Part shown: positions 7,716-30,784 of the stretch, piece by piece
Layout of the letters: each line of letters begins with the position of its first letter
Numbering within the stretch: position 1 is the first letter of the stretch
Origin: an uncultured Pseudomonadota bacterium
GTDB taxonomy: Bacteria > Myxococcota_A > UBA796 > SXON01
DNA length: 64,000 nt
Reading direction: 5' to 3'
Assembly: GCA_903885375.1 (NCBI GenBank)
Contig: CAISIK010000122.1
Coordinates: forward strand, 1 to 64,000
Made by a program: the position numbers and the translations under genes
The notes under the pieces: generated by a model
What the model was told of the DNA's origin: nothing
Seen by the model: only the letters and a program-made list of their open reading frames with translations
Database searches by the model: none

Positions 7716-8884
7716 ACCACCCGCCCGCCGCCGCCCGCCGTTCCCTCCGCCGCTCGCGCCGGGGCTCCACCTTCGTCATCGTCGTGATCTGCTTCATGGC
7801 CATGCTGGCGTTCGTGGCGCTGGGCGTGGACTATGGCGCCGTCTCCTCCGCGCGTGCCGAGCTCCAGATTGCGGCCGATGCGGCGGCGATGGCCGGCGCC
7901 AGTGCCCTCCCCGACGAAACCGAGGTCCGTGACCGGGCCACCGCCTTCGCCTCGCGGGTGAGCATCCGCGGCGATTCGATCAACCTCTCCTCGAGCGAGG
8001 TCATCGTCGGCAAGTGGGACAACGACAGCGGGTCGTTCACGCCCGGCGTGGTGGCCGATTCAGACGCGGTGAAGGTCACCGCCCGGTACACGCTCGAAAC
8101 GCCCATCAGCTCCATCTTCGGCTTCCCCAGCGTAGACCTTGTGGCGCAGGCCGGCGGCGGCGCCCCCGCGCAGGGGCGCGTGCCCGATCTGGTCATCGTC
8201 CAGGACGTCACCACGAGCTTCCGGGCCGAGATCGCCCTCGCCCGCCGCGCGGATCAGGCGCTGGTGGATTGCATCCACGGCAAGGCTGATCCGGAGTCGA
8301 AGGTGGGTCTGGTGGCCTTCTCCGGCCTCGAGAAGAACCTCCTCGCGCCCGCCCAGCTCGTCACCTACGCCTCCTCCTACGCCACGGTCACCAGCAAGAT
8401 CAGCTCGATCAACATCTGCGACAACCCGGGTATGCCGTCCTGCCTGAACACCAACATCGCCTCCGGTCTGTTCGCGGCCGACGAAATCCTCACCGCCTCC
8501 ACCTCCGAGCCCGAGGTCGGCCGGGCCGCCCTGCTGGTGAGCGATGGTGCGCCGACGTACAACTACGCGGTCTGCGCGAAAACCAAGGGCAAGTACCTGT
8601 CGAACTCGGCCTCGCGTTTCTGCCCCATCTGGCGTGATCGTCCCAGCACCGCCAAGCTCAAGACCGCTGCCCTCACGCTCCGCGATGAGATGGATGCGAA
8701 GGGCTACGACGTGTACACGGTGTTCTACAACGAGGACAGTGATCCGACGCAGACCGCGTTCATGGTCGACCTCACGGCGGGCAATGGCCTCTTCCTCGAG
8801 TCGCCCGACCCTTCGGACCTCGGCGCCATGCTCACCCAGGTGTGCCACGCGTACACCAACTCCAAGCCCGGCCTGCTCTGGTAG
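7709..8884 (+). CDS. TadG-like membrane protein with von Willebrand A domain
   Basis: A 391-residue protein. A TadG-type N-terminus (RRGSTFVIVVICFMAMLAF, one helix) is followed by AELQIAADAAAMAGASAL, the usual TadG segment. A von Willebrand A domain starts near residue 160; its metal site reads Asp166-Val-Thr168-Thr-Ser170, so Thr replaces the first Ser of the usual DxSxS. Later elements, LLVSDGAPT and VYTVFYN, fit the fold. It is probably anchored in the inner membrane with the VWA domain in the periplasm or on a pilus-like fibre. It is coupled to the TadE-like gene upstream and converges on a MopE-repeat lipoprotein gene. Confidence 0.8.
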   Translation: MLNHPPAAARRSLRRSRRGSTFVIVVICFMAMLAFVALGVDYGAVSSARAELQIAADAAAMAGASALPDETEVRDRATAFASRVSIRGDSINLSSSEVIVGKWDNDSGSFTPGVVADSDAVKVTARYTLETPISSIFGFPSVDLVAQAGGGAPAQGRVPDLVIVQDVTTSFRAEIALARRADQALVDCIHGKADPESKVGLVAFSGLEKNLLAPAQLVTYASSYATVTSKISSINICDNPGMPSCLNTNIASGLFAADEILTASTSEPEVGRAALLVSDGAPTYNYAVCAKTKGKYLSNSASRFCPIWRDRPSTAKLKTAALTLRDEMDAKGYDVYTVFYNEDSDPTQTAFMVDLTAGNGLFLESPDPSDLGAMLTQVCHAYTNSKPGLLW

Positions 8885-8898
8885 TGGGAGCGGCCGCG

Positions 8899-8921
8899 CC
8901 CCCTGCCCATGCGGGCGGGGG
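8899..8921. terminator. Possible hairpin between convergent genes
   Basis: CCCCTGCCC (8900-8908) and GGGCGGGGG (8913-8921) form a 9-bp stem with one G-U pair and a 4-nt ATGC loop. It lies in the 75-nt gap between convergent genes. No T tract follows on either strand, so an intrinsic terminator is only a weak call. Confidence 0.3.
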
Positions 8922-8959
8922 TGGGGCAGCCAGTCAGGCCGTAGGCCGCCGCTCGGGCC

Positions 8960-11251
8960 TCAGGGGCAGGGGCTGTCGGTGGTGGCCGTGCAGGTGCCGT
9001 ACGTACACACGACGCTGTCGCTGAGGGTGGCCGCGTTGGGGTAGCAGTACGAATCGGTGGTCGACGGGTTCTGCTGGATGTCGTAGGCGCTGTTGTCATC
9101 ACCCGAGCCATCGTCACCCCAGTCGCAACCGACCGACGACACATCGCCGTAGTACTTCGAAGAGAGGTATGCGCCGCCGCCGATCGGCGCAGTGTTGGCG
9201 ACGATGCCGGCCGCGCCGAGGGACGTGGCCTCGCAGCTCAACATCCCGACGTTCTGCACCCAAACGCCACCACCGGTCACCGAAGCCGTGTTGTCTTCGA
9301 TCGTGCTGTCCACGAGCTCGAGCCAGCCGTAGCCGAAGATGGCCGCGCCGCCGCCGTACCGCGTAGAGTTGCCGGTCACGACCGAGTCGATGACGGTCAC
9401 CGTGGGCTCGGAGGGCAGCCCGCCGTAGCTGGTGGCGCGAGAGAGCGCGATGCCACCACCGGCGTTGGAGGAGGTGCCGTTTCCGCCCGTGATGGTGAGG
9501 CCATCGAGCGTGAGCGTGCTGTCGGTCACCGAAACGACCGAGGCGTTCGGGCCGCCGAGGTCGTGCGCCGTGGTGAGGGTGGTGGAGCCGGCGCCATTGC
9601 GGCCGCGAACCGTGATGTTCGAAGCGGGATTGGTCAGCGTGATCCGGGCGTACCAGGTGCCATCGCAGAGGGTGAGCGTGCCGTCGCTCACCACCAGCGC
9701 CGACGATGCAGCATCCCCGATGGAGACGGGAGAGGCAACCGTTCCGGCGGTGAGCACGCCTGATACATCCGTTGAGCCGGATGTATCAGTCCAGAGAGCA
9801 GTGCCGACGTCGTCGCTCGCGGAGCCGTCGCAGTCCTGGTCGACCCCGTCGCAGAGCTCGGTGGCGCCGGGTGACACGGTGGCATCGGCATCGTCGCAGT
9901 CCCCGCCCGTGCCGACGCCGCCGCTCGGCGCATCACACGCGGAGGTGAGCGAAGCGTCATCGCCGTAGCCATCGCTGTCCGCGTCGGTGTACCAGTCCGC
10001 CTCACCGGTGGCGCCGGCTTCATCGACCGCGCCATCACAGTCGTCATCCCCGCCGTTGCACGCCTCGGTGCCGGCCGGGTTGACCGCGGAGCTGCCGTCG
10101 TCGCAGTCGGTGTTGTCGGCCACGGTGCCGGCGGGCGCCGCACAGGCCAGCGAGGAGGAGGCGGCATCCCCGTATCCATCGAGATCGACGTCGGCGTACC
10201 AGGCGATCTCGCCGTCGGCGCCGGCTTCGTCGACCGCGCCATCGCAGTCGTCATCGGCGGTGTTGCAGGACTCGAGCGCGTCGGGGTTCACATCCGCCGC
10301 CGCGTCATCGCAGTCGTCGCCCACCACGCAGGGGTCCGCCGGCGCGGTACAGGTGGTCCAGGCGGTGCCGGGATCCCCGTGCCCGTCGGCATCGGCGTCC
10401 GTGTAGTAGGTGGTGGCGTCCACGCTGTCGTCGGGGTCGACCGACCCGTCGCAGTCGTTGTCCTTGCCGTCGCAGACCTCGGCGGCGTCGGGGTTCACGC
10501 CGGGATCGGCATCGTCGCAGTCGCGCCAGCTCTCGGCGTAGCCGGCCGGCTGGTAGCAGCTCTCCAGAAACCCCCCGCTGCTGCCGTGGCCATCGCCATC
10601 ACCATCGAGGTACCAGGCCAGCGTGGGGATGTCCTCATCCACGGCGCCGCTGCAGTTGTTGTCCTTGCCGTCGCAGATCTCTTCGGCGCCGGCGTTCACC
10701 TCCGCCGCCTCGTCGTCGCAGTCGTCCGCGTTGCTGACGTAGCCCGCGGCGCCGGTGCACCCCTCGAGCGCGATGGCAGGATCGCCGTACCCGTCACCAT
10801 CACCATCCTTGAACCAGAAGTCTGCCGCTTCTTCGTCCACCAGACCGTCGCAGTCCTGGTCCACGCCATCGCACACTTCGGCGGCGCCGGGGGAGATGCT
10901 GGCGTCGGCATCGTCGCAGTCGGTGCCCCCGAAGCCGCTGAGCGCGTAGCCGTCCCCATCCTGGTCGGCGTCGTTCTCGTCGCAGTTCTGGTCCACACCG
11001 TCGTACCAGACCTCCTCCGCGCCGGGATTGACGGCGGGATCGGCGTCGTTGCAATCCCCGCCTTCCGCGGCGTACCCGTCGCCATCTTGGTCGGTGAGGC
11101 CCGTTTCGCCCGTTTCCCCCGTTTCACCGCTGTCCGCCGTGTCGTCCACGTTTCCGGTCTCAACCACAAAGCCCGTGTCGTCTTTCCCCGTGTCGGTGGC
11201 TGCGTCACAACCAACCAGGACAAGTGCCGTGAGAAGCGAAATACGGAGCAT
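8960..11251 (-). CDS. Lipoprotein with seven MopE repeats and beta-helix domain
   Basis: A 763-residue surface lipoprotein. Start ATG 11251 is chosen for the GAGGTG site upstream and the signal MLRISLLTALVLVGC that follows it. After an Asp/Thr/Gly/Glu linker, seven MopE-type units follow, each with a DCDD or DCND core, a VNPGA-like step, and a D-DCDG end; these bind calcium or copper in known relatives. The last third (for example STLTLDGLTITGGNG and NITVRGRNG) looks like a right-handed parallel beta-helix as in polymorphic outer-membrane proteins. A structural or adhesive cell-surface role is inferred. The repeat DNA is also repetitive, which could allow copy-number change. Confidence 0.85.
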   Translation of the reverse strand: MLRISLLTALVLVGCDAATDTGKDDTGFVVETGNVDDTADSGETGETGETGLTDQDGDGYAAEGGDCNDADPAVNPGAEEVWYDGVDQNCDENDADQDGDGYALSGFGGTDCDDADASISPGAAEVCDGVDQDCDGLVDEEAADFWFKDGDGDGYGDPAIALEGCTGAAGYVSNADDCDDEAAEVNAGAEEICDGKDNNCSGAVDEDIPTLAWYLDGDGDGHGSSGGFLESCYQPAGYAESWRDCDDADPGVNPDAAEVCDGKDNDCDGSVDPDDSVDATTYYTDADADGHGDPGTAWTTCTAPADPCVVGDDCDDAAADVNPDALESCNTADDDCDGAVDEAGADGEIAWYADVDLDGYGDAASSSLACAAPAGTVADNTDCDDGSSAVNPAGTEACNGGDDDCDGAVDEAGATGEADWYTDADSDGYGDDASLTSACDAPSGGVGTGGDCDDADATVSPGATELCDGVDQDCDGSASDDVGTALWTDTSGSTDVSGVLTAGTVASPVSIGDAASSALVVSDGTLTLCDGTWYARITLTNPASNITVRGRNGAGSTTLTTAHDLGGPNASVVSVTDSTLTLDGLTITGGNGTSSNAGGGIALSRATSYGGLPSEPTVTVIDSVVTGNSTRYGGGAAIFGYGWLELVDSTIEDNTASVTGGGVWVQNVGMLSCEATSLGAAGIVANTAPIGGGAYLSSKYYGDVSSVGCDWGDDGSGDDNSAYDIQQNPSTTDSYCYPNAATLSDSVVCTYGTCTATTDSPCP

Positions 11252-23587: not shown

Positions 23588-24754
23588 ATGCGCGTGCTGC
23601 TTGCCTACTCCGGCGGTCTCGACACCTCCTACCTGCTCTGCCGCCTCCTGCGTGAGGGTCACGAAGTCCACGCCGTCAGCGTGGACACCGGCGGGTTCAG
23701 CACCGAGGAGCGAAACGCGATCGCCGAGCGGGCCCGCAGCATGGGCGCCTCGATGTATCGATGTGTCGACGCGCGCGAGCGGGTGTATCAGCAACACATC
23801 GCGTGGCTCATCAAGGCGAATGTGCGCCGCGGTGGCGTGTATCCCCTGTGTGTCGGCGCCGAGCGTGTGGTGCAGGCCCAGGTGGTGGCCGAGCTGGCGC
23901 GCGAGGTCGGGGCCGACGCCGTGTGTCACGGCAGCACCGGCGCCGGCAACGACCAGATCCGCTTCGACGTGGCGATCCGCACCCTCCTCCCCGGCGCCCG
24001 CCTGCTCACGCCCATCCGCGATGAGGGCATCCAGCGCGAAACGAGCGCCGCCTACCTCGCGGCAGCCGGCTTCCCGATCTCGGCGGAGCGCAAGGACTAT
24101 TCCGTGAACCAGGGCCTATGGGGCGTGACCATCGGCGGGCGGGAAACGCACGACGCCTGGTCCTGGCTCCCCGAGCACGCCTGGCCCACCACCCGGAATC
24201 CGGCGCAGGCCCCCGCCGGGGGCGAGTCCGTGGAGCTCCACTTCGAAGCCGGTGAGGTGGAGGGCGGCCTCGCCACGGTCGAGCGGCTCAACGAGCTCGG
24301 CGCGTGCCACGGCGTGGGCCGCGGCATGCACCTCGGCGACACCATCCTCGGCATCAAGGGGCGCATCGCCTTCGAAGCCCCCGCGGCGGCCATCCTCATC
24401 GACGCCCACCGGGAGCTGGAGAAGCTCGTCCTCACGCGCCTGCAGCTCACCCAGAAGGAGGGTCTCGGCTCGACCTACGGTGCCCTGCTTCACGAAGGCC
24501 TCTACTTCGACCCGGCGATGCGCGACCTCGAGGCCTACTTGCACTCCACCCAGACGCGCGTCACCGGCGATGTGCGCGTGCACGTGGAACAGGGGCGGGT
24601 GGAGGTCCGCGGCGTGCGGTCGCCGTGGTCACTCATGAACGCCAGCGCAGGCACCTACGGCGAAACGAACCGCCTCTGGTCCAACGAGGATGCGCGCGGA
24701 TTCTCCAACGTGTACGGCCTCCAGGGCGTGCTGGCCGCCCGCGCGGGCACGTAG
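23588..24754 (+). CDS. argG: Argininosuccinate synthase (acyl-citrulline type)
   Basis: A 388-residue ATP-dependent ligase of the argininosuccinate synthase family. The PP-loop AYSGGLDTS is at residues 6-14; CHGSTGAGNDQIRFD carries the citrulline and aspartate contacts; VGRGMHLGDTILGIKGR and APAAAILIDAHRELEKL follow. By eye the overall sequence is closer to the Xanthomonas/Bacteroidetes branch that works with the N-acyl-citrulline route than to the E. coli type, which agrees with the N-acylornithine transcarbamylase 5 kb downstream. It is separated from the other arg genes by a desaturase and a lipoprotein gene on the same strand. A GGAAG site lies before the ATG. Confidence 0.92.
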   Translation: MRVLLAYSGGLDTSYLLCRLLREGHEVHAVSVDTGGFSTEERNAIAERARSMGASMYRCVDARERVYQQHIAWLIKANVRRGGVYPLCVGAERVVQAQVVAELAREVGADAVCHGSTGAGNDQIRFDVAIRTLLPGARLLTPIRDEGIQRETSAAYLAAAGFPISAERKDYSVNQGLWGVTIGGRETHDAWSWLPEHAWPTTRNPAQAPAGGESVELHFEAGEVEGGLATVERLNELGACHGVGRGMHLGDTILGIKGRIAFEAPAAAILIDAHRELEKLVLTRLQLTQKEGLGSTYGALLHEGLYFDPAMRDLEAYLHSTQTRVTGDVRVHVEQGRVEVRGVRSPWSLMNASAGTYGETNRLWSNEDARGFSNVYGLQGVLAARAGT

Positions 24755-24830: not shown

Positions 24831-25868
24831 GTGAATACCGACGTCCGGGGCCCCACCGCCCCCCTGAGCAGCTTCGACCGCCGTCTCGCCTCGTTCCTCC
24901 ATGACGAGCGCGACGTGCCCTTCGTTCACCTGATCGGGCAGTGCCTGCTGTTCCAGCTGCTCTCGCTCGGCATGTTCGCGCTGGGCAGCTCGGTGTGGAT
25001 GGTGGCGCCCATCTACTGGGCGGCCTGGGGTTTCGGGCTGGTGGACCGGTTCATCCTGATGCTCCACTGCACGAGCCATCGGAACCTCTTCCGCAGCCGG
25101 CGCCTGAACCTCGTCATCCCTTGGATGGTGGGCCCCTTCTTCGGGCAGACCCCCGAGAGCTACTACGCCCACCACATGGGGATGCACCACCCGGAGAACA
25201 ACCTCCGAGAGGACCTCTCCACCACCCTGTGCTACCAGCGGGACAGCCTGGCCGGCTGGCTGCACTACCTCGGCAGCTTCCTCACCGCCGGCCTCCCGCT
25301 CCTCGCCCGCTACCACGCGGTCAAGGGGAACCGGAAGCTGTTCAAGCGGCTGCTCGTGGGTGAGAGCGCGTTCTGGCTCACCATGGCGGCCCTGCTCGCC
25401 TTGAACTGGCAGGCCACCCTCATCGTGTTCGTCATCCCCGTGCTCACCATCCGCACGTTGATGATGGCCGGCAACTGGGGCCAGCACGCCTTCGTGGACG
25501 GCGCGGATGCGGGCAATCCCTACCGCAACTCCATCACCTGCATCAACACGCGGTACAACCGTCGTTGTTTCAACGACGGCTACCACATCCTGCACCACCT
25601 GAAGCCCCGCACCCACTTCACCGAGTACCCGGCGGAGTTCGAGGCCAACAAGGCCGAGTACGGGCGGCAGGACGCCATCGTGTTCGACGGCATCGACTTC
25701 TTCCAGGTGTGGCTCTTCCTGATGCTCGGGCGGCACGACTGGCTGGCGAAGCGCCTCGTGGCCCTTCCTGGCGCCCCCACGCGCGACCAGGCCGGCGCGA
25801 TCGCCTTCCTGAAGTCCCGGCTCTCCCCGATCCTCGAGGAGAGCGAGCAGGGAATCGCCGCGAAGTAG
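24831..25868 (+). CDS. Membrane fatty acid desaturase
   Basis: A 345-residue integral membrane di-iron desaturase. Histidine boxes are HCTSH (79-83), HHMGMHH (114-120) and YHILHH (251-256), with an extra His at GNWGQH. Hydrophobic segments near residues 35-75, 95-104, 145-160 and 183-212 fit four membrane helices. It would introduce double bonds into membrane acyl chains with an external electron donor; regioselectivity cannot be read from sequence. No ferredoxin or reductase gene is adjacent. It starts at GTG with no Shine-Dalgarno site and a -10-like TATGAT 8 nt upstream. It is followed after 2 nt by a lipoprotein gene. Confidence 0.88.
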   Translation: MNTDVRGPTAPLSSFDRRLASFLHDERDVPFVHLIGQCLLFQLLSLGMFALGSSVWMVAPIYWAAWGFGLVDRFILMLHCTSHRNLFRSRRLNLVIPWMVGPFFGQTPESYYAHHMGMHHPENNLREDLSTTLCYQRDSLAGWLHYLGSFLTAGLPLLARYHAVKGNRKLFKRLLVGESAFWLTMAALLALNWQATLIVFVIPVLTIRTLMMAGNWGQHAFVDGADAGNPYRNSITCINTRYNRRCFNDGYHILHHLKPRTHFTEYPAEFEANKAEYGRQDAIVFDGIDFFQVWLFLMLGRHDWLAKRLVALPGAPTRDQAGAIAFLKSRLSPILEESEQGIAAK

Positions 25869-25870
25869 CG

Positions 25871-26527
25871 GTGAGAGGCCTGGGCCCGCGCTACACTGGC
25901 CCCGTGCTGGCCCTGCTCCTCATCTCCTGCACCGGCACCCAGACGATCAAGCCGGGCGGCGAAGAGACCGCCGCCGACACCGGCACCGCGGCCGACACCG
26001 CCGCCGATTCCGGTGAACCGGCGCGCGACCTCGACGAGGATGGCTACGCCGCCGGAGAGGACTGCATGGACCTCAACGCCGCGGTGCACCCCGGCGCGGA
26101 GGAGGTGTGGAACCAGCTCGACGACGACTGCGACGGTCGCTTCGACGCCGACGGCACCTGGGCGGGCACAGCCACCGTCAATGCCCAGGCCGTGTACGAG
26201 GGCAACCGGTACACGTTCCGGCTCGGCTGCCCCTTTGCGGGCGAGCGCAAGAGTGGCACCTTCGAGTGGCTGGTTTCCTGCACGACCGACGCCGACGACG
26301 AGAAGGCCCAGCTGCTCCTCGGGCCCTCCTTCACCATCCGGCCCGAGGATGGGGGCGTGGAGCTCGAACGGTGGGAGGGCGACGCGATCGTGGAGAGCGC
26401 GGGCGGATGGGACACCCCGGCCGACGCCACGATCGTCTGGAGCACCTTCGACCGCGCCGGACTCGCCGCCGACGTGTCCGCCGCCTCGCTCTCGATGGCG
26501 GTCGGCGCCACGATCTCCCGCCAGTAG
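25871..26527 (+). CDS. Lipoprotein with a single MopE-type repeat
   Basis: A 218-residue lipoprotein. GTG 25871 gives a textbook signal (basic residues, then PVLALLLISC); a second GTG at 25904, preceded 6 nt upstream by TACACT, is an alternative that would leave an unusually short signal. The mature start is Asp/Thr/Ala/Gly-rich, then one MopE-type unit (EDGYAAGEDCMD, VHPGAEEVW, DDDCDG). The C-terminal part, with paired Cys residues and strands such as YTFRLGCPF and GTFEWLVSC, is of unknown family. It lies between the desaturase and the arg operon on the same strand. Confidence 0.72.
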   Translation: MRGLGPRYTGPVLALLLISCTGTQTIKPGGEETAADTGTAADTAADSGEPARDLDEDGYAAGEDCMDLNAAVHPGAEEVWNQLDDDCDGRFDADGTWAGTATVNAQAVYEGNRYTFRLGCPFAGERKSGTFEWLVSCTTDADDEKAQLLLGPSFTIRPEDGGVELERWEGDAIVESAGGWDTPADATIVWSTFDRAGLAADVSAASLSMAVGATISRQ

Positions 26528-26588: not shown

Positions 26589-27653
26589 GTGAAGGTACTG
26601 CTCAACAAAATCGCGTCCTCCACCCGCAACTGCCGCCTCTCGCGCGAGGTCACGCTCGGCGCCCAGATCACGGCCGAAGAAGGCAGCGTCCTCGCGGTTC
26701 GCGCGCTCGACCGCAAGAGCACCTACAACGAGATCGAGGACATCCACGGCCGGATGGCCACCGTGAACGAGGGCGACATCGTGGCCGGCGTGCTCGGCGA
26801 GCGGCGGGCGCTGCACGGCTACACCGGCATCGTGCCCTCCGAGGTCAAGGTGGGGGACATCCTCCACATCCTCAACCTCGGCGGCGTGATCGGCCTGTGC
26901 ACGAGCTACAACCCCGACGTGGGCCCGGCCTGCCGCGCCGAGGTGCTGGGGCAGGTGCTCACGTTCCCCCACCTCGGGGAGCGCAAGGGCGTGCCGGCCA
27001 CCATCAAGGCCAACGCGCTCCCGAGCGCAAGCTTCATCGACTCGAGCGTGCCGATCGTGGCCGTGAGCGGCACGTGCATGAACGCCGGCAAGACCTTCGC
27101 CGCCTGCGAGGTGATCCGCGGCCTCACCCGCCGGGGCTACCGCGTGGGTGCCGCCAAGCTCACGGGCGTGTCGCTCCGCCGCGACACCTTGAAAATGGAG
27201 GATGTGGGCGCGGTCCGCGCGCTGTCGTTCAACGACGCTGGCATCGTGTCCACCCGTCGCGCCACGTCGCTCGCCGTGGCCCGGGGGCTCGTCCAGGCGC
27301 TCAACGAACCCGTGCACGGCGTCGGAATCGACGTGATCGTGGTCGAGCTCGGCGATGGCGTGATGGGCGAGTACGGCGTGGAAGAGATCCTCCGCGCCTC
27401 CGACCTCATGAAGCACACCGCCGTGCACGTGCTCTGCGCGAACGACCCCGTCGGCGCGTGGGGTGCCGCCCGCTACTTCACCGAAGACCTCGGGCTGCAG
27501 ATCTCGGTGATCTCCGGTCCGCAGACCGACAACGCGGTCGGCCGGAGCTTCGTGGAGGAGCGCCTCGGTCTCGTGGCGCTCAACGCTCGCACGGCCGGCG
27601 ATGCCCTCGCCGCCAAGGTGGCGGAGCTGGTCGAGGCGGCCCGTGGTGCGTGA
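26589..27653 (+). CDS. P-loop NTPase in arginine operon (DUF1611/BioD-like fold)
   Basis: A 354-residue protein starting at GTG 26589. Residues 1-125 are a beta-rich N-domain (EGDIVAGVLGERRALHGY, VKVGDILHILNLGGV). The C-domain has a SIMIBI-type P-loop, GTCMNAGKT at 161-169, then AAKLTG, and VIVVELGDGVMGEYG in a position like Walker B of BioD, MobB or DUF1611 proteins. Its stop overlaps the argC start, so it is the first gene of the argC-argD-transcarbamylase operon. It is not a known arginine enzyme. One characterised DUF1611 protein, DgcN, is recalled to N-acetylate D-glutamate; an N-acylglutamate synthase role is therefore a tempting but unproven guess. Confidence 0.7.
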   Translation: MKVLLNKIASSTRNCRLSREVTLGAQITAEEGSVLAVRALDRKSTYNEIEDIHGRMATVNEGDIVAGVLGERRALHGYTGIVPSEVKVGDILHILNLGGVIGLCTSYNPDVGPACRAEVLGQVLTFPHLGERKGVPATIKANALPSASFIDSSVPIVAVSGTCMNAGKTFAACEVIRGLTRRGYRVGAAKLTGVSLRRDTLKMEDVGAVRALSFNDAGIVSTRRATSLAVARGLVQALNEPVHGVGIDVIVVELGDGVMGEYGVEEILRASDLMKHTAVHVLCANDPVGAWGAARYFTEDLGLQISVISGPQTDNAVGRSFVEERLGLVALNARTAGDALAAKVAELVEAARGA

Positions 27654-28599
27654 TCGGCTGCGGGCCGTCGTGGTGGGTGCGTCGGGGTACACCGGCGCCG
27701 AAACCCTGCGTTGGCTCCTCGGCCACCCGGCGGTGGAGGTGGTCGGGGCCACCGCCCGCAAGCACGCCGGCGCCCCGCTGGCCGAGCTTTGGCCGCAGTT
27801 CCACGGCAGCGGCCTCGTGCTGACGGCCGAGCCCCCGCCCGCCGACGTGTACTTCCTCTGCCTCCCGCACGGCGAGGCCGCCCGGCTCGCGCCCACGCTC
27901 ACGGCGGAGTGCATCATCGACCTCTCGGGCGATCACCGCCTGCCGGAGCCGCTCCACTCCGAGCACTACGGCTTTGCCCGCGAGGGGGAGCCCTGGCAGT
28001 ACGGCCTCCCCGAGCTCGGCCCGGAGCTGCTCCTCGGCGCGCGCCGCATCGCCAACCCCGGCTGTTTCGCCACCGCCCTCGCCCTCGCCCTCCTGCCGCT
28101 CGCGGGCAAGATGTCGGGGCGTGTCGGCGCCGTGGGCATCACCGGGAGCACCGGCAGCGGCGCCACGCCCACCGACACCACGCACCACCCGCTGCGTGCG
28201 GAGAACCTCCGCGCCTACAAGGTGCTGCGCCACCAGCACGTGCCCGAGGTGGAGCGCGCGATCGGCAACATCCGGCTCGACTTCGTGCCGATGTCGGGCC
28301 CGTTCCGTCGCGGCATCCTCGTGACGTACACCCTGCCCGCCTGTCCGGCGCGGCTCTGGGAGGCGCACTTCCAGCACAACCCGCTGGTGCGGGTGATCAC
28401 GCGCCCGCCGGAGATCCTGCACGTCCTGGGCTCTCCCCGCGCCGACATCGGCGTGATCGAAGGGGGCGACGTCACGGTGGTGCAGTGCGCCGTCGACAAC
28501 CTCTGCCGCGGCGCGGCCACGCAGGCCATCGCCAACCTCAACCTCCGGATGGGGTGGCCCATGCACCTCGGCCTCGACCGCGTGAGCGCAGTGCCATGA
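27643..28599 (+). CDS. argC: N-acyl-gamma-glutamyl-phosphate reductase
   Basis: ArgC reduces N-acylglutamyl phosphate to the semialdehyde with NADPH. The N-terminal Rossmann motif reads GASGYTGAETLR, and the catalytic Cys lies in ANPGCFATAL (Cys141 counting from GTG 27643). Other family segments are LCLPHGEAA, IIDLSGDHR, GSTGSGA and the C-terminal AIANLNLRMG. Either of two adjacent GTG codons (27643, 27646) could start it; both overlap the upstream P-loop gene by a few bases and a GAGG lies just before. The end overlaps argD as ATGA. Confidence 0.95.
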   Translation: MVRDRLRAVVVGASGYTGAETLRWLLGHPAVEVVGATARKHAGAPLAELWPQFHGSGLVLTAEPPPADVYFLCLPHGEAARLAPTLTAECIIDLSGDHRLPEPLHSEHYGFAREGEPWQYGLPELGPELLLGARRIANPGCFATALALALLPLAGKMSGRVGAVGITGSTGSGATPTDTTHHPLRAENLRAYKVLRHQHVPEVERAIGNIRLDFVPMSGPFRRGILVTYTLPACPARLWEAHFQHNPLVRVITRPPEILHVLGSPRADIGVIEGGDVTVVQCAVDNLCRGAATQAIANLNLRMGWPMHLGLDRVSAVP

Positions 28600-29744
28600 C
28601 CATCACGCTCGACGAACTCATCGGCCAGCCCGGCAACGAAGCCGACTGGCAGCTCGCCACCTACGCCAAGCTCCCGCTCGACATCGTGCGCGGCGAGGGC
28701 AGTCGCGTGCAGACGGCTGACGGGCGCTGGTTCTGGGACTGGTACGGCGGCCACGCGGTGGCGCTCATCGGGCACTCCCACCCCACCTGGCGCCGGATCG
28801 TGGCCGAGCAGGCCGAGCGCCTCGTGTTCTACAGCAACGTGGTGTACTGCCCGGTGCGCACGGCGGCCTGCCGCGCGATCGTGGAGTTCGCCCCTGCCAA
28901 CCTCAGCCGCGTCTTCCTGTCGAACTCGGGCGCCGAAGCCAACGAGGCGGCCCTGAAGCTCGCGCGGCACCACACGGGGAAGCCGGAGATCGTGGCCTTC
29001 GAGGGCTCGTTCCACGGCCGCACCCTCGGCGCGCTCGCCGTCACGCACAGCGAGAAGTACCGGCGCTACGCCCTGCCGGAGTACGGCCACACCCGCTTCG
29101 CGCCCTGGGGCGAGGTCCCCAGCCTCGACGAGAACGTGGCGGCCGTGATCCTCGAGCCCGTGCAGTCGATGGCGGGCATGCGCACCGCCACGAGCGCGTT
29201 CCTGCACGGACTCCGGGCGGAGTGCGATCGCGTGGGCGCCCTGCTCATCCTCGACGAGGTGCAGACCGCCTGGGGCCGCCTCGGCAAGAACTTCGCGGCC
29301 GACTTCTGGAACGTCCGCGCCGACATCGTGACGAGCGCGAAGAGCGCGGCGGGCGGCTTTCCCGTGGGCGTCACGTTGGTGGACGACGGCGTGGCCCGTG
29401 GGGTGAAGTCGGGCGACCAGGGCACCACCTTCGGCGCCGGTCCCCTCGCGAGCGCCGCGCTCCTCGCCACGCAGTACGTGATCCGCGAGGAGGGCCTCGT
29501 GGCCCGCGCCGCCGAGATCGAGCGCCGCGTGCGGGCGGCCTTCCCCGGCGAGGTGCGCGGCCACGGCGCCCTCCTCGGGCTCGTCTTCCCCGATGCGGTC
29601 GCCCCGCGTGTGGCGGCGCTACGGGATCGCGGAATCCTGACCGGCGGGAGCGACGACCCCCGCGTGATGCGCCTGATGCCCCCACTGAACCTTCCTTTCG
29701 AAGCGATCGACGAGCTCGCCTCCACCCTCCGGAGCCTTGGATGA
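28596..29744 (+). CDS. argD: N-acylornithine aminotransferase (class III, PLP)
   Basis: A 382-residue class III aminotransferase. PLP-site features are SNSGAEANEAALK (110-121), FHGRTLGAL (139-147), the Asp of LILDEVQT (Asp220), and the Schiff-base lysine in TSAKSAAGGFPVG (Lys249). In this operon it would convert N-acylglutamate semialdehyde to N-acylornithine. The family also includes other omega-aminotransferases, but the position between argC and the transcarbamylase, with ATGA overlaps on both sides, makes the arginine role firm. Acyl group preference (acetyl or succinyl) is not settled by the sequence. Confidence 0.93.
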   Translation: MTITLDELIGQPGNEADWQLATYAKLPLDIVRGEGSRVQTADGRWFWDWYGGHAVALIGHSHPTWRRIVAEQAERLVFYSNVVYCPVRTAACRAIVEFAPANLSRVFLSNSGAEANEAALKLARHHTGKPEIVAFEGSFHGRTLGALAVTHSEKYRRYALPEYGHTRFAPWGEVPSLDENVAAVILEPVQSMAGMRTATSAFLHGLRAECDRVGALLILDEVQTAWGRLGKNFAADFWNVRADIVTSAKSAAGGFPVGVTLVDDGVARGVKSGDQGTTFGAGPLASAALLATQYVIREEGLVARAAEIERRVRAAFPGEVRGHGALLGLVFPDAVAPRVAALRDRGILTGGSDDPRVMRLMPPLNLPFEAIDELASTLRSLG

Positions 29745-30784
29745 ACCCGACCCTCGACACCCGCCTTCACGACGCCGTTTCCCGGGTTCGCCAGCACTGG
29801 CGCGGCACCCGGCTCATGGATGGGCTCGAGCCAGGCGTGGAGGGCACCCGCGCCCTGCTCGACGTGGCGCGCATCTACCGGGCCAACCGCCTCGAGATCG
29901 GGCGCATGCGCCCGCTGCTCGGACGCGCGGTGGCGGGCCTCTTCTTCGATCCCTCGCTCCGCACGCACACCTCGATGGAGGTGGCCACGGGCCGCTGCGG
30001 CGCCCACTTCGTGTACCTCCAGGGCGGTGAAGGCACCTGGAAGATGGAGTTCGATGAGGGCGTGGTGATGAACGGCCAGACCGCGGAGCACGTGAAGGAA
30101 GCGGCCCCGGTGCTGTCGTCCTACGCCGATGTGCTCGCTGTCCGGGCCTTCCCCCGCTCCGGCAACCGCGACGAGACCGTGATCCGCGCCTTCGCCCGCT
30201 ACGCCGGCGCGCCGCTCATCAACCTCGAGTCCGCGCTCGCCCACCCCTGCCAGGGCCTCGCCGACATGCTCACGCTCGATGACCTCGGCGGCGGCGGCTT
30301 CAAGGGGCGCAAGGTGTGCCTCACCTGGGCCCCGCACCCGAAGCCCCTCCCCCAGGCCGTACCCCTCTCCGTGGTGCGGGCCGCCATCCTCGGCGGCGCC
30401 GACCTCCACGTGGCCTGCCCCGAAGGCTTCGACCTCGACGCCGAGGAGATGGAGCGGGTGGCTGGCTTCGCCGCCGACACCGGCGCCCGCGTCACCCACA
30501 CCCGCGATCAGGCCGCCGCCACCGACGGCGCGCTCGCGGTGTACGCGAAGGGCTGGGCCGCGAACGATCGCGACCACCACTCCGAGCTGGCCGCCCAGAA
30601 CCAGGACTGGACCGTGGGAGAGCGTCAGATGGCCAACGCCACCGCCTTCCTCCACTGCCTGCCGGTGCGTCGTAACGTGATCGTGACGGACTCCGTGTTG
30701 GACGGGCCGAAGTCGCGCGTCATCCCCCAGGCGGCCAACCGAGAGCCGGTGCAGGCGGCGGTGCTCCTGAGCTGGATGCTCTGA
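29741..30784 (+). CDS. argF': N-acylornithine transcarbamylase (AOTCase/SOTCase family)
   Basis: A 347-residue transcarbamylase that carbamoylates N-acylornithine. The carbamoyl-phosphate loop is SLRTHTS (72-78), with HPCQ (168-171) and HCLP (305-308). The loop EFDEGVVMNGQTAEH matches the acylornithine group rather than ordinary OTCase. By hand alignment to recalled Xanthomonas AOTCase, the residue that decides acetyl or succinyl use (Glu92 there, Pro90 in Bacteroides SOTCase) is Ala115 here, and the carboxylated Lys302 position is Ile314. From published swaps at that site a succinyl preference is more likely. It is the last gene of the operon. Confidence 0.88.
   Translation: MNPTLDTRLHDAVSRVRQHWRGTRLMDGLEPGVEGTRALLDVARIYRANRLEIGRMRPLLGRAVAGLFFDPSLRTHTSMEVATGRCGAHFVYLQGGEGTWKMEFDEGVVMNGQTAEHVKEAAPVLSSYADVLAVRAFPRSGNRDETVIRAFARYAGAPLINLESALAHPCQGLADMLTLDDLGGGGFKGRKVCLTWAPHPKPLPQAVPLSVVRAAILGGADLHVACPEGFDLDAEEMERVAGFAADTGARVTHTRDQAAATDGALAVYAKGWAANDRDHHSELAAQNQDWTVGERQMANATAFLHCLPVRRNVIVTDSVLDGPKSRVIPQAANREPVQAAVLLSWML

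Follow-up and report, generated by a model that had tools for sequence, protein, structure and literature searches.

What does a gene of unassigned role contribute when it stands directly before argC in an operon for arginine synthesis? The gene, here called U, occupies 26589..27653 on the plus strand of the 64,000-nucleotide stretch of DNA that was analysed (the window), starts with GTG and encodes 354 residues. It is followed on the same strand by argC for N-acyl-gamma-glutamyl-phosphate reductase (27643 or 27646..28599; TIGR01850, 256.5 bits, cut-off 233.6), argD for acylornithine aminotransferase (28596..29744; PF00202) and a gene for an N-succinylornithine-type carbamoyltransferase (29741..30784; PRK04523, 334.8 bits, cut-off 288). 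The best NCBIfam model for ArgD is TIGR00707, yet its 312 bits lie below the cut-off of 410. An earlier note had described these four genes as a chain of overlaps, and the coordinates bear this out: U ends inside argC, argD starts at 28596 before argC ends at 28599, and the transcarbamylase gene starts at 29741 before argD ends at 29744. Upstream, also on the plus strand, lies argG for argininosuccinate synthase (23588..24754; TIGR00032, 278 bits, cut-off 268.2). Between argG and U the window holds a fatty-acid desaturase gene (24831–25865) and a MopE-like gene (25904–26524); elsewhere argG mostly adjoins U. U is a real gene, since 27 relatives with 36–90% identity can be aligned with it almost from end to end, and these 28 members share 48 invariant columns.

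The same note had listed argB among the genes that the operon lacks. The genome does have it: argB, argE and argH (Pfam AA_kinase, Peptidase_M20 and Lyase_1) are found on the minus strand of the same contig at about 70.9–74.0 kb, outside the window and 40–43 kb downstream of U. An absence of argB from the genome is thereby ruled out, and the suggested supply of N-acylglutamate phosphate by U becomes unnecessary. U itself is present as a single copy in this genome (G000; 6.0 Mb, 90.5% complete) at E <= 1.

In relatives the surroundings of U are largely preserved. A full-length U was defined by E <= 1e-50, and in the first 34 loci that carry one (L031–L064, some truncated by contig ends) tblastn searches that used the window's proteins as queries detected argC in 32, the transcarbamylase in 28, argG in 26 and argD in 24. 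Pfam searches of L034 identified an amino-acid kinase (ArgB), an M20 peptidase (ArgE) and Lyase_1 (ArgH) downstream of the transcarbamylase and an ArgR gene preceding argG; a kinase or ArgR was also seen in L041, L043, L046, L051 and L061. A wider scan with one genome per species yielded at least 566 relatives of U, the best 80 of which are the named loci considered below. Among these best 80 of at least 566, some of them short, ArgG was matched in 75, ArgC in 73, ArgB in 62, the transcarbamylase in 61, ArgH in 54, ArgE in 53, ArgD in 51 and ArgR in 47. Where the same 80 loci offered room, ArgG was the immediate upstream neighbour of U in 62 of 73 and ArgC the immediate downstream neighbour in 68 of 74. 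The survey that the earlier note had proposed, of U beside argC where argA and argJ are missing, thus places U mostly between argG and argC.

The complete set of argG, U, argC, transcarbamylase, argB, argE and argH occurs together in 42 of these best 80 loci, with argD unmatched in some of the 42; the window genome has the same gene set, with argB, argE and argH at the distant position given above. No gap between neighbouring matches exceeds 350 bp in 40 of the 42 loci (the exceptions are L077 and L090), which leaves hardly any space for a further enzyme. Since the operon covers the path from N-acylglutamate to arginine, U is its sole gene without a role, and all steps of arginine synthesis are assigned in U operons except the formation of N-acylglutamate. 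In U genomes the ArgB kinase genes resemble classical ArgA in its kinase half, most of them scoring 108–173 bits on that model, and lack any acetyltransferase half.

No model in Pfam or NCBIfam reaches its cut-off on U, the sub-threshold P-loop matches being MobB (16.5 bits), DUF1611 (13.8 bits), CbiA (12.2 bits) and others. U belongs to a nameless, uncharacterised protein family, and searches of an open-licence library of papers turned up no account linking it to arginine synthesis. Within the phylum, 84 of 377 genomes have a match at E <= 1e-3 and 66 a full-length U. The record titles of the best 80 of at least 566 relatives name Deltaproteobacteria/Myxococcota, Acidobacteria (Geothrix), Gemmatimonadetes, Planctomycetes, Elusimicrobia, Bdellovibrionales and others, and isolates among the relatives include four Geothrix (L122, L126, L130 and L134) and four Corallococcus. 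Three records titled Klebsiella pneumoniae, Micrarchaeota and Diapherotrites (L074, L121, L136) carry U with arginine genes and are probably mislabelled or mis-binned MAG contigs. A complete Elusimicrobiota genome (L104) has two adjoining U matches between argG and argC, one at 8001–9037 and a second copy.

Median pairwise identities in 55 of the 80 loci (best 80 of at least 566) are 0.52 for U, 0.53 for ArgG, 0.42 for ArgC and 0.47 for the transcarbamylase. In these 55 loci U is conserved like a pathway enzyme and, judged by conservation and by distance correlations, evolves with the pathway, which speaks to co-evolution and not to function. Six further loci (L065–L070) carry distant full-length paralogs with about 30% identity, for which profile-profile comparison with U gives 100% over nearly the full length. 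Apart from U, no match to any of the five arginine proteins of the window lies near these six. M20 peptidase genes adjoin three of the six (L066, L068 and L069); hence members of the wider U family may produce or process other N-acyl amino acids.

The AlphaFold2 model of U, computed from 51 sequences, has a pLDDT of 94.5 and a pTM of 0.91. It agrees with the earlier description of a beta-rich N-terminal domain separate from the P-loop domain. The former spans residues 1–151 (26589..27041), has the invariant residues Y46, E50 and R72, and reaches a pLDDT of 93.7 when modelled alone; a fold search of this domain against the PDB gave nothing below E 0.9. The latter spans residues 153–354 (27045..27650). 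Its P-loop GTCMNAGKT is present as claimed at residues 161–169 (27069..27095), as seen from sequence and conservation. In a Foldseek search of the PDB with U, the top hit was dethiobiotin synthetase (BioD; 1dae, E 1.9e-6), and the hits that followed included SRP/FtsY GTPases and HypB; 132 matches had E <= 0.001, and the best 50 of these 132 were mostly BioD, SRP/FtsY and HypB. A structure search of a viral structure library returned little besides one CTP synthase. Judged by the model and its P-loop, the C-terminal domain is of the SIMIBI class of P-loop NTPases, with BioD as its nearest relative.

This kinship extends to individual residues. K168, K190, D199 and E253 align with the P-loop Lys of BioD and then with its Lys, Asp and Glu, and all four are invariant in 28 of 28 and in 51 of 51 sequences. 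Their BioD counterparts bind phosphate and magnesium. Together with D256, D286 and D314 they count among the invariant residues of the domain. Profile-profile comparison gave 94.4% for BioD and a probability of 91.4 for DUF1611 (hhalign, six DUF1611 proteins, 164 columns, P-loop domain only), with the controls ArgC, transcarbamylase (AOTC) and ArgG at 0.2 at most. The earlier characterization of U as BioD/DUF1611-like therefore stands for kinship within the P-loop superfamily (91.4% for DUF1611, 94.4% for BioD) and falls for membership of DUF1611 (13.8 against 25 bits), and the proposed profile check with PF07755, PF17396 and BioD reached no cut-off. In particular, PF07755 scores 13.8 bits on U against a gathering cut-off of 25 and matches nine of the 28 aligned members at E <= 0.01 (best 1.1e-4), PF17396 (DUF1611_N) has no match on U at E <= 1, leaving the N-domain without similarity to DUF1611, and TIGR00347 (BioD) scores 14.7 bits against a cut-off of 83.3. 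Like U, DUF1611/DgcN proteins (PF07755, PF17396) have two domains with the P-loop domain at the C-terminus, but their N-domains do not align with that of U, and their operon and predicted substrate are unlike those of U. BioD (TIGR00347) shares the SIMIBI P-loop fold and the aligned P-loop Lys, second Lys, Asp and Glu, whereas U has an extra N-domain of 150 residues and stands in an arginine operon, and the window genome keeps a separate BioD (G000 C80). The family cut-offs rule out U as a member of DUF1611 or BioD. DUF1611 was found in six of 188 genomes of the phylum at E <= 1e-20, one of which (G073) also has U, and it gave no match in the window genome at this threshold. No GNAT or ArgJ domain of Pfam or NCBIfam matches U at E <= 1.

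If U forms N-acylglutamate, known enzymes for this step should be rare where it occurs. ArgJ (PF01960, E <= 1e-10; 209 of 377 genomes) is present in four of the 66 U genomes (G246, G296, G308 and G334) and in 205 of the 311 others, with a Fisher p of 1e-20 that is overstated because the genomes are related. One of the four, G308, has ArgJ as well as argG, U, argC, argD and the transcarbamylase together. The transcarbamylases over the PRK04523 cut-off separate into an acetyl type (24 genomes, more than 500 bits) and a succinyl class (70 genomes, 288–450 bits). The succinyl class is found in 61 of 66 U genomes versus nine of 311 others, so that U occurs in 61 of the 70 genomes with this class, and in none of the 24 with the acetyl type. 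By this distribution U is a core gene of arginine synthesis. For NAGS-K, short NAGS and ArgA, the 39 of 66 U genomes with completeness of 90% or more and contamination of 5% or less were considered. The NAGS-K domain PF04768 is present in 22 of the 24 acetyl-type genomes and in none of the 39 U genomes; 14 named control genomes also lack it, so that those 22 are the sole positives. Short NAGS (PRK07757) was over the cut-off in 0 of 67 genomes and in three of 14 controls, with weak sub-cut-off matches in G263, G350 and G334. Classical ArgA (TIGR01890) was over the cut-off in 0 of 43 genomes and in one of 14 controls. Sub-threshold TIGR01890 matches cover the kinase half only in 41 of 42 cases, the one in the window genome being its ArgB; that of G350 is to the acetyltransferase half. 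Neither ArgJ nor ArgA over the cut-off was found in any of the 13 genomes that stand behind 13 of the 80 named loci (four Corallococcus, four Geothrix and five MAGs). A sub-cut-off ArgA match in G386 is to the acetyltransferase half. These tests covered ArgJ, NAGS-K, short NAGS and ArgA.

Thus, apart from three genomes (G126, G132 and G216) and the four of 66 with ArgJ, U is present where acylated intermediates are made without another tested NAGS. Genomes with U almost never have ArgJ or one of the tested ArgA classes, and the role in N-acylglutamate formation suggested in the earlier note is strongly favoured.

The exceptions are instructive. Nine genomes have a transcarbamylase of 288–450 bits without a full U. 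In G218, G269 and G122 the contig ends at the expected site of U, G151 and G256 contain U fragments, and G330 is acetyl-type at the two transcarbamylase positions that can be read. G126 (L157), G132 (L158) and G216 (L159) remain, with a succinyl-class transcarbamylase and no U. No ArgJ, NAGS-K acetyltransferase domain, short NAGS or ArgA over the cut-off was found in these three. No GNAT was present among six proteins near the operons of G126 and G216 that were checked as replacements of U, and a small ORF after argH in G132 had no Pfam match. These three genomes must use another first enzyme or be auxotrophs; consequently, a missing known NAGS alone is no proof of the role of U. Conversely, five U genomes have no succinyl-class transcarbamylase over the cut-off. 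In G054 a transcarbamylase fragment lies at the contig start, and G008, G069, G326 and G334 keep U-argC-argD with a nearby kinase gene and have only lower-scoring carbamoyltransferases. Since U is kept with argC, argD and the kinase gene in these four, it is tied to the acyl-glutamate half of the pathway and not to the carbamoyltransferase.

The nature of the acyl group can be read from the transcarbamylase. In the portions of PMC4581275 cited here, Glu92, Asn185 and Lys302 mark the acetylornithine enzyme, and A/S/P/V/Q, P and V/I/E mark the succinylornithine enzyme at the same positions. The window transcarbamylase has A115, P204 and I314 at AOTC positions 92, 185 and 302 and is of the succinyl kind. 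All three positions are succinyl-like in 71 of 84 distinct loci, and one or more deviate in the other 13; position 92 is A in 45, V in 20, P in nine, S in four, T in four, Q in two and E in none. The acetyl-type loci L163, L164 and L165 have E, N and K. The same portions of PMC4581275 describe R178 as anchoring the succinyl group in the Bacteroides fragilis transcarbamylase. Its counterpart is Lys in 72 of the 84 loci and in the window, which somewhat weakens the succinyl assignment. On balance, the intermediates of the U operon are more probably succinylated than acetylated.

By elimination, gene neighbourhood and co-occurrence, U is likely the missing N-acylglutamate synthase, and probably represents a class for the first step that is neither GNAT nor ArgJ and unlike the known enzymes. 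Gene, operon, pathway gap, co-occurrence, fold class and the conservation of BioD-like catalytic positions were computed here; the reaction outlined below is a proposal. U would produce an N-acylated glutamate, most likely N-succinyl-L-glutamate, as step one of arginine synthesis; if U is the synthase, we hold succinyl to be the acyl group with good confidence. The product would then be converted to arginine by ArgB, ArgC, ArgD, succinylornithine carbamoyltransferase, an M20 deacylase (ArgE), ArgG and ArgH. According to the mechanism that we propose, Mg-ATP would be bound by the SIMIBI P-loop domain, which would phosphorylate the free carboxylate of succinate, the acyl donor, and so form an acyl phosphate. 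Glutamate would sit between this domain and the N-domain, where its alpha-amine could attack the acyl phosphate to give N-succinylglutamate, ADP and phosphate. Such chemistry would amount to carboxylate activation, as in BioD-like and CobB/CTP-synthase-like ligases. The fold suggests ATP and a carboxylate rather than acyl-CoA as the donor, a choice that, for a synthase, we regard as evenly poised.

The strongest competitor is an acyl-CoA:glutamate N-acyltransferase in which the P-loop holds the ADP part of CoA and ATP is not cleaved. The known NAGS classes use acyl-CoA or acylornithine, U has distant P-loop kinship with DUF1611 (probability 91.4), and DgcN, a DUF1611 protein, reportedly N-acetylates D-glutamate with acetyl-CoA. 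U, however, fails DUF1611 membership and has a dissimilar N-domain, and its invariant BioD-like Lys, Asp and Glu suggest phosphoryl transfer from a Mg-nucleotide. We consider this reading unlikely, if a serious one.

That U is an NTP-dependent regulator or scaffold, which might for example sense arginine or energy and act on ArgB or ArgG while an unrecognised GNAT elsewhere performs the acylation, appears distinctly improbable. Many regulators and GTPase switches belong to the SIMIBI class (SRP, FtsY and MipZ are among the Foldseek matches), and the three genomes with the transcarbamylase and without U indicate that another first enzyme may exist in the phylum. But an ArgR match is already present in 47 of the 80 loci (best 80 of at least 566), U is as conserved as ArgG, and the near-exclusion with ArgJ and NAGS-K would be left unexplained. 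A role as metallochaperone of the HypB/UreG kind, loading ArgE (the M20 metallo-deacylase), could be imagined from HypB among the PDB fold matches and from the M20 peptidase genes beside three of six distant paralogs (L066, L068, L069). It would leave the first step of the pathway without explanation, and U has no conserved metal-binding motif, since no His reaches 80% conservation and the best-conserved Cys residues vary among 28 divergent members (C163 is Ser in six, C104 is changed in five); we deem such a role very improbable. That U is an ordinary DUF1611/DgcN or BioD member in the usual job of that family, as the sub-threshold Pfam matches might suggest, can practically be dismissed given scores under the cut-offs, a BioD (C80) of the genome's own and DUF1611 as a separate family in the phylum (six of 188 genomes at E <= 1e-20; G073 has both).

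Returning to U as an N-acylglutamate synthase, the first step ascribed to it is the one carried out by ArgA, ArgJ, NAGS-K, short NAGS and Cg3035, all of which have GNAT or ArgJ folds. The N-succinylornithine carbamoyltransferase pathway of Bacteroides fragilis has transcarbamylase specificity residues like those of U operons and differs in first enzyme and phylum. For Bacteroidetes, excerpts of PMC9026213 and PMC7311316 propose ArgA2 (BT3761) as N-succinylglutamate synthase in genomes with N-succinylornithine carbamoyltransferase, and the former annotates it as a GNAT. The proposed reaction is the same as for U, but ArgA2, as presented in these excerpts, is a GNAT and U a P-loop NTPase; U would therefore be an independent solution.

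We tentatively put forward U as the founder of a new family, an ATP-dependent N-succinyl-L-glutamate ligase (succinate + ATP + L-glutamate) with a glutamate-binding N-domain of new fold. It would provide a CoA-free start of arginine synthesis in Myxococcota, Acidobacteriota, Gemmatimonadota, Planctomycetota, Elusimicrobiota and others, and paralogs beside M20 hydrolases would make other N-acyl amino acids. This full combination is less likely than not. According to excerpts of a 2024 paper (PMC11561045), Holophagaceae other than Acidiparvus lack N-acetylglutamate synthase; where, as in these excerpts, the first arginine step is scored as missing, bacteria can be miscalled arginine auxotrophs. 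If U makes N-acylglutamate, its presence in Geothrix (Holophagaceae) would close the gap described in those excerpts of PMC11561045. If U is the enzyme, the SIMIBI class would gain an N-acylation activity, the succinyl-type arginine pathway would become complete in several phyla, and a family of at least 566 loci, so far uncharacterised, would receive a function that can be tested in the culturable relatives Geothrix and Corallococcus.
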